From NCBI RefSeq assembly GCF_001570745.1, contig NZ_BCSG01000016.1, forward strand, positions 1 through 55,922: DNA of 55,922 nucleotides, read 5' to 3'. The notes beneath the pieces are model-generated. The model searched no databases and was not told where the DNA came from. It was given only the letters and a program-made list of their open reading frames with translations. This document shows, one piece after another, positions 2,782-31,432 of the stretch. This stretch comes from Alicyclobacillus mali NBRC 102425 (GTDB taxonomy: Bacteria > Bacillota > Bacilli > Alicyclobacillales > Alicyclobacillaceae). How positions within the stretch are numbered: the first letter of the stretch is position 1; the number at the start of each line of letters is the position of its first letter. The position numbers and the translations under genes were made by a program.

Positions 2782-4079
2782 GAAAGCATCGCCTCCTTTG
2801 CGAGCGTTTCGAGCGCGGCGGGTTGCGCCTCGGCAGCGTGCGGGCTCGGATCGCCCATGTGCGCGAGCCACGCGTATGCGCGCAGGGAGCACGGGTGGCG
2901 AGGATGTCTGCGCAGCCATGTGAGGAGCGCAGCGTGAAGCGCGATGAGTCCCGCCGCCACAGCGGCAAGCCACGCATTCCCTGATCCCGGCGTCCCCAGG
3001 AGAACCGCCCACGCGCGGATCAGCTCGTCACGGAGTGCCAAGGCAAGCGCGCCCGCGAACAGCGCGATCGCAGCGCCGAGCCACCGCCCAGCGCGTAGGG
3101 ACGTGGCCGCCGCAAGGGCGACCGCACACCCTGCGCCGAGCAACAAACCAGACAAAAGGCTCAACCCGTCTGCCGGACGAGGGAAGGCATAAACGAGGAA
3201 GAACGCCGCTCCGACGAGTTGTGCCCACGGAAAACGAGGTGATAGCACCTGCGCCTTGACCAGAACCTCGTCGGGGCGTGGCACGGCCGAGCCGGATCGC
3301 AAGAACAGCGTTGCCTTGAAGACCCCGTGCAGCACCAGATGGACCATGGCGACGGCATATGCCCCCACGGCGCACTCCGTCAGCATGAGCCCCATTTGTG
3401 CCATCGTGGACGCGACGAGCTGACGCTTGTAATCCGCGTGAATCATGAGGATCCCTGTGCCGATGGCGATGCTGACCCACGCCGCAGCCATGAGCAGCGC
3501 GCGAGGGATGATCCCCCCCGTCGCGAGAACCGGCGCAAATTTGGCGAGCAGCAGGCCACCAGCGTTCACCACGCCTGCGTGCATCAGCGCCGACACCGGC
3601 GTCGGCGTAATGGCCGAGTCAAGCAACCAACGCATGAATGGCGCATTACCAGCTTGTGCGAGCGCAACCACCGCAAGGACGAGACTCGCGAGAATCGCCA
3701 CGTGAGGACGTTGTGCCAGCGCCGCGACGCCCGCGTGGAGCGAGATTCGGCCGGAGGACTTCACGCACAAAAGCGATATCAGGGCGATACCGCCCATGCT
3801 TCGCAGAAGCCTCACGAAGACTGTGCGGACGACGCGCCGCACCGCACGGCTGCCTCGCTGCAGCGAGATGAGCCGCACGATCCCGACATCCATCCCTATC
3901 CAACAGACGGCGAAGACAATCGCGTTGTCGACCATCCAGCTTGCGCTCGCGCAGAACAGCGTCCAGGTCATCCACGCGAAGTAGCGGCCGTATCGCTCGC
4001 TCCCTGCCAGGTGGCGCATCGCAAACGCCTCGACCCCGAGTCCCAGCGCGGCGATGTAGGCAGACACGGCCCAGCCCAA
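2778..4079 (-). CDS. dabB: DabB, NuoL/MrpA-like membrane subunit, 5' end irregular
   Basis: This is a proton-conducting antiporter-like subunit (proton_antipo_M type) that energises DabA. It is strongly hydrophobic, with VVALAQAGNAPFMRWLLDS and ALMHAGVVNAGG resembling the conserved Lys/His helices of NuoL-like subunits. The first usual start is a TTG at 4079 (433 aa), but no Shine-Dalgarno precedes it. The same frame stays open to 4190 and encodes another membrane helix (VGLLLGGLALVAFISLAGL) before meeting a stop, with no ATG, GTG or TTG. Family members have one more N-terminal helix, and only 76 bases separate this point from the previous gene. I infer 5' truncation, a frameshift or a non-standard start. 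It is coupled to dabA by a 4-base overlap. Confidence 0.72.
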   Translation of the reverse strand: MGWAVSAYIAALGLGVEAFAMRHLAGSERYGRYFAWMTWTLFCASASWMVDNAIVFAVCWIGMDVGIVRLISLQRGSRAVRRVVRTVFVRLLRSMGGIALISLLCVKSSGRISLHAGVAALAQRPHVAILASLVLAVVALAQAGNAPFMRWLLDSAITPTPVSALMHAGVVNAGGLLLAKFAPVLATGGIIPRALLMAAAWVSIAIGTGILMIHADYKRQLVASTMAQMGLMLTECAVGAYAVAMVHLVLHGVFKATLFLRSGSAVPRPDEVLVKAQVLSPRFPWAQLVGAAFFLVYAFPRPADGLSLLSGLLLGAGCAVALAAATSLRAGRWLGAAIALFAGALALALRDELIRAWAVLLGTPGSGNAWLAAVAAGLIALHAALLTWLRRHPRHPCSLRAYAWLAHMGDPSPHAAEAQPAALETLAKEAMLS

Positions 4080-29689: not shown

Positions 29690-31084
29690 TCAGCGTCCGA
29701 CGCGCAGGCGACGTTCGGACAAGGGAGATGCATTTTCTATTTCGGCGTCCTCTCCGACGCTCGCCGCGTTCAGCGTGAGACCGCGCGTCTCGGGCGCCAG
29801 GAAGAGGCAGATCAAGAATCCGCCGAAGGTCACGAGCGCCCCCACCAACATGGTTGGGCCCACACCGTACCGGGCCAAGGCCCATGGCAAAAGGTACGTG
29901 CCTGCCACGGCTCCCAACCGGCTGATGCAGGTCGTCACACCAACCGCTGTACCGCGCACCTCGGTGGGAAACAACTCGTTTGGGGCGAGCCATTCCATGA
30001 TGTTCGGCCCGCCGGAAAACAGCGCGTACAGCAAAAAGCCGAGGCCAATGACCCAGAGCGGCCCTTTCGGGAACAGCCCGAGGAGCAACATGCCGATGGT
30101 CATGACAGCGAACGAGCCAATCATCGTCGCCCTGCGCCCGAGGCGATTCAGAAGCCAGAGCGCGGGTACGCAGCCCACGATGAACAGCACGCTGATGATC
30201 GCCGAACCGTACCCGGACGATCCGCGGAGCACGTGGTAGTCGTCAAGCAGCGTCGGGCCAAACGTCAACATCGCGAAAAGCGGCGCGACCGCGGCCGTGA
30301 AGAAGCCGCCGACGTACAGCGTGCGCTTCCAGTACGTGCGATTGAACAGTGTCAGGTAACTGGTGCGCGTGCGCTTCTCGTCCGGCACCGCGATGTGCTT
30401 GAGGCTCGCACCCGGCCCATAGATGTTGCGAAGCACCTTCAGCGCTTCGCGCGCCCGGCCCTGCTGCAGAAGCCAACGCGGAGACTCGGGCGTGCCAAGC
30501 CTCAAAATCACGAGCACCACGCCAGGCACCGCGCTCGACGCCAACATGTACCGCCAGGCGTCCGGCCCAATGGGCAGAAGCCACTGTCCCACCAGATATG
30601 CGACCGTGGAACCCACGTACCACGCGATGACCGTCACGCCGAGCATCATGCCCCGGTGTTTGCGCGGCGCGAACTCGGTCAAAAGCGACGTTGCGATGGG
30701 ATAATCCGCGCCGACCGCGATGCCGAGCACGACGCGCAAGGCGAAGAGTTCCCAGGCGCTGTGTACAAAGAACTGCAAAATCGAGGCCACGATGAGCAGC
30801 ACGAAATCAATGGTGTACATGAGCTGGCGCCCAAATCGATCCGTCACGTACCCAAGCAGTCCGCCGATGAAGATGCCAATGAGTGCCGATGCCCCAATCA
30901 GGCCACTCCACATGGCGTCGAGGTGCAATTCAGGCGTCAACTGCGTGAGCGCCACGGCGACGATGCTCAGGATGTACCCGTCGAGAAACGGCCCACCAGA
31001 CGAATAGATGGTGAGCTTCAGGTGAAAAGGACTCCACTTCGCGTCTTCGACCGGATTGGCCGGCCTTGTCGCTTGCAGTTCCAT
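29690..31084 (-). CDS. MFS transporter, metabolite/sugar:H+ symporter type
   Basis: The 464-residue, twelve-helix protein belongs to the sugar-porter/metabolite-proton-symporter side of the MFS. Visible motifs are GGLLGYVTDRFGRQLMY (helix 2-3 signature), RVVLGIAVGADYPIATSLLT with the acidic helix-4 motif shared by phosphate and niacin porters, ESPRWLLQQGRAREAL at the central loop and NELFPTEVRGTAVG (ELFPT..R) in the second half. The substrate cannot be read. GAGGGGGG precedes the ATG by five bases. The long leader carries a c-di-AMP-type riboswitch, which points toward osmotic or ionic homeostasis. It converges on DUF378 and shares a hairpin with it. Confidence 0.86.
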   Translation of the reverse strand: MELQATRPANPVEDAKWSPFHLKLTIYSSGGPFLDGYILSIVAVALTQLTPELHLDAMWSGLIGASALIGIFIGGLLGYVTDRFGRQLMYTIDFVLLIVASILQFFVHSAWELFALRVVLGIAVGADYPIATSLLTEFAPRKHRGMMLGVTVIAWYVGSTVAYLVGQWLLPIGPDAWRYMLASSAVPGVVLVILRLGTPESPRWLLQQGRAREALKVLRNIYGPGASLKHIAVPDEKRTRTSYLTLFNRTYWKRTLYVGGFFTAAVAPLFAMLTFGPTLLDDYHVLRGSSGYGSAIISVLFIVGCVPALWLLNRLGRRATMIGSFAVMTIGMLLLGLFPKGPLWVIGLGFLLYALFSGGPNIMEWLAPNELFPTEVRGTAVGVTTCISRLGAVAGTYLLPWALARYGVGPTMLVGALVTFGGFLICLFLAPETRGLTLNAASVGEDAEIENASPLSERRLRVGR

Positions 31085-31250
31085 GGTTTCCCCCCTCAAG
31101 GTATGGCGATCTCGACTGCGCGCCTGCGTAATAACGCACACGAAGTCGCGATATCGCACGAGGGGGATCCGCAGATGAGGTAGACCAACGAGGCTCACCG
31201 GTGGGAAAAGCGAGGCGAAGAAAGCGGCGATACATGGCATCGTCCCCTTT

Positions 31251-31366
31251 CCGTGCGCTTACGAGGTTAGCTGACGGGTTAGGGCGGAAAGGCGCCCCAC
31301 GACCAAAGTCGTTTCACCCCGAGAGTTGGGTCACCCGTTTCCTCCGCAGGAGGAATTCAGCGCTGC
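31251..31366 (-). promoter_or_regulatory. c-di-AMP riboswitch (ydaO/yuaA type)
   Basis: On the minus strand the 3' block reads AACCCGTCAGCTAACCTCGT followed by AAGCGCACGG, practically the same as the end of the Bacillus ydaO aptamer (GAACCCGUCAGCUAACCUCG, then UAAGCGU). Upstream are GGGTGACCCA, CGGGGTGAAACGAC and a GGGCGCCTTTCCGCCC helix, in the order seen in ydaO RNAs. The closing stem P1 pairs GCGCT near 31360 with AGCGC near 31258. The class senses c-di-AMP and usually switches off K+/osmolyte uptake or wall hydrolase genes. Here the next downstream gene with a credible start is the MFS transporter, about 165 bases on. I did not identify a clean expression-platform terminator. Confidence 0.85.
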
Positions 31367-31432
31367 CGCTTGTATCGCAATGCGAAACCTGATGTACATG
31401 TTACGATACACGAAACTTGAGGTGAACGCAAG

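Follow-up and report, generated by a model that had tools for sequence, protein, structure and literature searches.

In the 55,922-nucleotide stretch of Alicyclobacillus mali NBRC 102425 DNA analyzed here (the window), an MFS transporter gene lies behind a c-di-AMP riboswitch whose predicted pseudoknot takes in the Shine-Dalgarno sequence of a leader open reading frame (ORF), and we lean modestly toward reading this arrangement as a c-di-AMP OFF switch that acts through the leader ORF.

A cmscan search of the whole window returned two matches above the gathering score, a tmRNA and an RF00379 element on the minus strand at positions 31372–31240. The latter scores 81.5 bits against a gathering score of 38 (E = 1.9e-17) and covers model positions 1–134 of 134, with neither end cut off. 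The initial annotation, made from the letters alone, had proposed a ydaO/yuaA-class riboswitch here, and the covariance model confirms it at full length; the closing stem at either end and the AACCCGTCAGCTAACCTCGT block are present as described. The span given at that time, 31085–31366, does reach from near the 5′ end of the aptamer to the base preceding the MFS start codon at 31084, but the gap to that codon, counted from the end of the aptamer match at 31240, is 155 nt rather than 165. The same aptamer, also at full length, precedes B. subtilis kimA/ydaO, and the A. mali genome itself carries four RF00379 elements and encodes two diadenylate-cyclase domains. On sequence grounds, we regard the c-di-AMP riboswitch aptamer as real, and it presumably binds its ligand at this locus.

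The gene behind the riboswitch (29690–31084, minus strand) encodes a predicted MFS transporter of 464 amino acids that starts with the ATG at 31084 and is preceded by its own Shine-Dalgarno sequence, GAGGGGGG, at 31090–31097. A longer version starting at 31240 (516 amino acids) was rejected, as stops break the frame between the aptamer and the MFS gene in several close homologues, and this upstream extension looks accidental. By family and predicted fold, the protein is sugar-porter-like: it matches Pfam Sugar_tr at 213 bits, and its predicted structure (mean pLDDT 78.3) matches the generic sugar-porter-like folds of XylE, SV2A, STP10, and GLUT3 in Foldseek. It scores below the curated cut-offs of the TIGR00879 sugar porter (170.2 of 237.8 bits), TIGR00887 phosphate:H+ symporter (88.5 of 610 bits), and ProP (31 of 544 bits) models, and under the cut-off for each of the best 25 of 35 matched NCBIfam models. 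A QQ..N sequence in the seventh helix is a sugar-binding motif, and inspection of the alignments by eye shows that the seventh helix of this protein does not have it. Protein families, the sequences of solved structures, the predicted structure, and Foldseek gave no assignment of substrate. The initial annotation had suggested an osmolyte, ion-coupled, or phosphate-like uptake system; an osmolyte importer would be a reading drawn from c-di-AMP biology only, and none of the three types is either favored or disfavored by our comparisons.

The placement of the riboswitch in front of this gene is borne out by its conservation in related bacteria. The 20 scanned loci include 18 close homologues (L035–L052, 68–100% identical), of which 17 have RF00379 upstream; no RF00379 match was found upstream of the two distant homologues (L053 and L054, 33–36% identity). 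The 17 loci represent all 15 Alicyclobacillus genus genomes plus G018 and G020, from two further genera of the family. None of seven related MFS genes (57–69% identical; L052, L101, L102, and L185–L188) has an RNA-family match at E values up to 0.1; L052 is counted in both sets, being the sole noncarrier among the 18, and L186 is interrupted by stops. At the level of E = 1e-120, a match to the MFS protein occurs in 21 of 41 family genomes. Because 17 of the 18 close homologues carry RF00379 and the distant and related genes do not, the pairing of riboswitch and MFS gene is, as judged by sequence comparison, a kept, orthologous arrangement; orthologues do not count as independent observations. 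In G020, a cobalamin riboswitch (102.6 bits) is located downstream of the MFS gene, at 3050–3235 of L050.

Within the window aptamer, a loop strand (CCUUUCCG, 31285–31292, minus strand) is complementary over eight pairs to positions 31246–31253 in the aptamer tail. The 3′ strand of the predicted pseudoknot, CGGAAAGG, overlaps the Shine-Dalgarno sequence of the leader ORF, GGAAAGGGG, the two together occupying 31244–31253. Among the 17 MFS aptamers, 97.0% of cells at the eight pairs are standard-paired, as compared with 90.7% in shuffles (0 of 500 as high), and versions of the pairing slid along the sequence reach at most 69.1%. Native loops and tails also fit one another better than swapped partners do, with energies of −15.13 versus −13.63 (sd 0.40) in the 17 MFS aptamers. 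Of the 85 other RF00379 elements in the genus, 48 entered the same test and gave −10.84 versus −7.56 (sd 0.37); the remaining 37 were left out because the motif used did not fit them. One pair shows compensatory change (A-U, C-G, and U-A) and five pairs never vary in the 17 sequences; two of five covariation measures are not above shuffles, as 495 of 500 shuffles reach the observed value for pairs changed on both sides and 198 of 500 reach that for further pair types. The crystallized ydaO/yuaA riboswitch contains a pseudoknot, and its sequence, as given in the accessible text of that report, displays by eye a loop–tail complementarity similar to that of the window aptamer (PMC5393176). The aptamer tail is also a good Shine-Dalgarno sequence, and directly behind it an ORF of at least 100 codons begins in 39 of the 85 other elements, a rule that overlooked a few cases such as L134 and L149. 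In the subset that was translated, these long ORFs resemble, by eye, secreted NlpC/P60- or LysM-type proteins.

The MFS leaders place a much-repeated arrangement behind this tail. In 16 of the 17, the aptamer is followed by a linker of 150–336 nt, and in all 16 of these long leaders, a start codon occupies a nearly identical position (ATG in 15, TTG in L048). An ATG located 5–12 nt behind the Shine-Dalgarno sequence and opening at least 20 codons is found in 15 of the 16, versus 0.85 of 16 expected from shuffled linkers. As far as the anatomy goes, the Shine-Dalgarno sequence of this upstream ORF (uORF) falls within presumed ligand-controlled structure in every one of the 16. The ORF runs for 46–48 codons in clade A, 28 in clade B, 24 in clade C and L046, 26 in clade D, and 20 in clade E. 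The window, in clade A, is an exception to these lengths: its ORF (ATG at 31235; 30930–31235, minus strand) has 101 codons, as compared with 46 in the three closest relatives. Its linker is one base shorter than theirs, at about position 31121, and the ORF therefore passes the usual stop and overruns the MFS start; the missing base is either a natural difference or an assembly error. In L036–L038, 11 nt lie between the end of the ORF and the MFS start; the ORF overlaps the MFS gene by one base in L039 and is separated from it by 116–266 nt in clades B–E. At the remaining locus, L040 of Alicyclobacillus fructus, the linker is 4 nt long and the GTG start codon of the MFS gene itself sits at the leader-ORF start position; going by its sequence, this is a natural version of the system without the relay.

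The reading frame of the leader ORF shows conservation, with 52 amino-acid changes versus 63.5 expected (p = 0.006, from seven of nine listed pairs, two overlapping pairs having been left out), and the other two frames give no such signal (p = 0.46 and 0.48). A third-position excess is seen in clade A but is absent from clades C and D. The peptide is poorly conserved across clades, the motif ADPP being common to clades A and B, and that of L036, the sole MFS leader peptide searched, has no Pfam or NCBIfam match. Pro-Pro dipeptides occur in 12 of the 16 leader peptides versus 4.8 expected, a suggestive excess that is clade-dependent and tied to C-richness.

The initial annotation had left the mode of control open and had overlooked a concrete candidate, namely a pseudoknot tail that serves as the Shine-Dalgarno sequence of a short leader ORF. 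In our proposal, c-di-AMP binding would stabilize the aptamer pseudoknot, whose 3′ strand is the ribosome-binding site of the leader ORF, and initiation there would cease; without ligand, the pseudoknot would open and the leader ORF would be translated. This step rests on the anatomy of the leader. Translation of the leader ORF would in turn permit MFS expression, which we infer would fall as c-di-AMP binds. The route from leader ORF to transporter may differ between clades. In clade A, coupling or reinitiation seems most likely because, in four of five members, the stop of the ORF falls 11 nt short of the MFS start or the two share one base, and in five of five the ORF crosses the strand that may pair with the MFS ribosome-binding site; in the window itself, ribosomes on the longer ORF would overrun the MFS start. 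That strand, CCCCCUC (31160–31166, minus strand), lies inside the uORF, is invariant in all five clade A sequences, and is paired with the complementary MFS Shine-Dalgarno sequence in the predicted minimum-energy fold. Freeing the uORF raises the modeled accessibility of the MFS Shine-Dalgarno sequence in the window from 0.13 to 0.75, a rise that partly follows from forcing the uORF open, and by 0.11 or less in 5 of 16 loci. In folds without ribosomes, accessibility is not below that of shuffled-upstream controls (rank 14 of 40 for the window; only L050 falls below all 40). We therefore call the clade A pairing plausible, as shuffled upstream sequence hides the G-rich Shine-Dalgarno sequence about equally well. 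Sequestration of the MFS Shine-Dalgarno sequence by the uORF was rejected as a general rule, with no consistent pairing of this kind in clades B–E.

For clades B–E, the long gap to the MFS gene together with a C-rich, G-poor leader ORF makes it more likely that translating ribosomes would shield the leader RNA from Rho. The corresponding stretch of the window, directly behind the aptamer (31160–31239, minus strand), is likewise C-rich and G-poor and is a possible Rho-loading region, with (C−G)/80 = 0.20. A value of at least 0.12 in the first 80 nt behind the aptamer is found in 16 of 16 MFS leaders versus 5 of 85 other RF00379 elements, and the mean is 0.185 in the former versus −0.028 in the latter. 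The C excess beats shuffles of the linker itself at p ≤ 0.05 in just 4 of the 16. It is ordinary for its own locus in L041, L042, L043, and L051, where 6.0–14.5% of sense-strand windows are as high; in the remaining 12 loci, 2.6% or fewer are. Rho itself is found over its cut-off in all 15 genus genomes, that of A. mali included. Leader composition favors, without proving, Rho-dependent polarity relieved by translation as the route in clades B–E.

Several other explanations can be set against control through the leader ORF. The leader ORF might be incidental, with the riboswitch acting across the 155-nt linker to expose or hide the ribosome-binding site of the MFS gene; we consider this unlikely. 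In clade A, pairing of CCCCCUC with GAGGGGGG would indeed span the linker, and L040 demonstrates that direct control is possible in the lineage. Such plain translational control nevertheless does not explain why all 16 long leaders keep a start codon at nearly the same position or why, outside the window, ORF length hardly varies within a clade, and in clades B–E, it finds no consistent pairing between Shine-Dalgarno sequence and uORF. A little more doubtful is a competition between hairpins in clade A. There, the aptamer tail could pair within the pseudoknot or, alternatively, form a hairpin with downstream sequence; this hairpin might be a weak terminator or might mask the Shine-Dalgarno sequence of the leader ORF, and c-di-AMP could then even switch the gene ON. 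The hairpin in question, GGAAAG...CUUUCU (31219–31252, minus strand), is confined to clade A, starts in the aptamer tail, includes the leader-ORF Shine-Dalgarno sequence and start, and shares its GGAAAG strand with the pseudoknot, which it would exclude. It is kept at all five clade A loci, at −17.0 kcal/mol in L035–L038, the window among them, and −16.4 kcal/mol in L039, and a permissive detector, which reports terminator-like hairpins in 10 of 17 MFS loci, makes such a call in L035–L039. The stricter detector is silent at these five loci, however, no U-run follows the hairpin in the window, and the other 12 of 17 loci have a comparable tail hairpin of −9.1 kcal/mol or weaker, or none. Its CUUUCU arm lies a few codons inside the leader ORF, in conserved coding sequence, so the hairpin may be incidental; it could also be an anti-pseudoknot element or a weak terminator. 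Because such a competitor would hide the leader Shine-Dalgarno sequence in the absence of ligand, we are less sure of the direction of control in clade A than in clades B–E.

That an intrinsic terminator located further along the linker controls transcription strikes us as improbable, even though this mode is known for the class from the accessible text of a published account (PMC9960051) and 19 of the 85 other elements in the genus have a terminator called within 320 nt, in at least one case inside a gene. The stricter detector calls a terminator in L047 and L051 and in none of the other 14 of 16 long MFS leaders, and an intrinsic terminator was rejected as a general platform, with none shared between clades under either detector. 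In the window, the initial annotation's statement that there is no clear terminator holds: the stricter rule calls no hairpin with U-run between aptamer and MFS gene, and the consensus scan lists a single weak hairpin in the gap (31242–31228, six pairs, three of them G-C). We give similarly little credence to the idea that the short ORF is the real target of the riboswitch and encodes a functional small protein, with a separate promoter in the spacer driving the MFS gene. The length of the spacer in clades B–E (116–266 nt) would allow it, and promoter-like hits to a sigma-70 consensus fall in the linkers of L048 and L051; the same consensus, applied also to the region ahead of the aptamer, gave few hits overall and was uninformative. 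Against this, 14 of 16 linkers have no promoter hit, clade A has almost no spacer, the peptides are scarcely alike between clades, the L036 peptide matches neither Pfam nor NCBIfam, and A. fructus has no such ORF yet retains both riboswitch and MFS gene.

Control through a leader ORF can also be considered for other c-di-AMP riboswitches in the genus. Among the five C-rich elements outside the MFS loci, three (L112, L132, and L133) have a short ORF behind the tail Shine-Dalgarno sequence and, at a distance, a transporter gene. That of L112, which shares a contig with the Alicyclobacillus suci MFS locus, encodes a ProV-type ATPase (450 bits, over the TIGR01186 cut-off), and those of L132 and L133 encode NCS1-type permeases, the former by Pfam PF02133 and the latter by likeness of its start. 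The remaining two are L110, with an 8-codon ORF behind the tail Shine-Dalgarno sequence, and L144, with a long one. We tentatively raise the possibility that Alicyclobacillaceae share a c-di-AMP importer circuit, in which the pseudoknot would hide the Shine-Dalgarno sequence of a C-rich, often Pro-Pro-containing leader peptide, c-di-AMP would let Rho reach the untranslated leader and so repress the MFS gene (and, in single lineages, genes for ProV/OpuA-type and NCS1-type transporters), and Pro-Pro pausing would provide a second input.

Further riboswitch loci of the genus show arrangements of their own. A strong c-di-AMP riboswitch lies upstream of an rplS-like gene at L001 (G000:C12:8847-8979), and the two are separated by an ORF of ≈60 codons (...ELIEMVMKPELTQYARDLEIQHALKRMERG...) unmatched in Pfam and NCBIfam, a terminator called at +221, and a stretch that looks by eye like a promoter; the riboswitch may control this short ORF rather than the rplS-like gene. 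Similar leaders, L118–L131, have a terminator call in 11 of 14 loci. L106–L108 contain paired c-di-AMP riboswitches whose starts are 352–500 nt apart, the first leading into an ORF of 61–62 codons (MQMQEWIDLGRVSELVGSELLYDAD...) and the second into a strongly called terminator, beyond which lies a gene whose product is by eye universal stress protein-like. Behind the tail Shine-Dalgarno sequences of L109, L110, L113, and L114 are ORFs of 8–12 codons ending in Pro-Pro-stop, and in L113 and L114, the Pro codons fall in the 5′ arm of a called terminator.

Individual parts of the proposed mechanism have precedents, for which we cite the accessible portions of the respective reports. The B. subtilis kimA/ydaO riboswitch uses a terminator, whereas the MFS leaders have none conserved and their tail Shine-Dalgarno sequence starts a leader ORF (PMC9960051). 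The C. glutamicum nlpC riboswitch likely acts on translation, through a suggested pseudoknot that blocks the ribosome-binding site; there, in contrast to the MFS leaders, the blocked site is that of the regulated gene itself, and the portion cited describes no leader ORF (PMC9960051). A review, in the part available, names ydaO among riboswitches able to block a ribosome-binding site by interdomain docking (PMC10907184). Relays through a uORF are described for other riboswitch classes. In the M. tuberculosis pe20 M-box, a translational platform directly controls a small upstream ORF together with Rho-dependent termination; this is an experimental result for a Mg2+ aptamer in another bacterium, whereas we infer the relay in Alicyclobacillus (PMC12810186). 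In the M. tuberculosis ppe2 B12 riboswitch, the ligand-bound fold partly masks the Shine-Dalgarno sequence of a uORF whose translation is required for the next gene, with overlapping stop and start codons; that aptamer binds B12, and the downstream gene, unlike the MFS gene, has no obvious Shine-Dalgarno sequence (PMC11260477). Among the papers listed in our literature searches, which cover subscription literature thinly and do not establish absence from print, no title or abstract opening showed a c-di-AMP riboswitch that has a leader ORF or that precedes an MFS gene. Riboswitch–uORF relays of other classes and c-di-AMP switches that likely act on translation are already known, and the combination of such a relay with c-di-AMP was not met among the papers listed.

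The leader-ORF model offers a testable answer to how c-di-AMP riboswitches that have no terminator can act, with A. fructus as a natural variant that dispenses with the relay. It would extend riboswitch–uORF relays from the B12 and Mg2+ switches of mycobacteria to a second-messenger switch in Firmicutes, and the circuit reading, if true, would describe a c-di-AMP riboswitch working through a leader peptide and Rho. The conserved pairing also adds an uncharacterized MFS transporter, present throughout the genus, to the likely c-di-AMP regulon.
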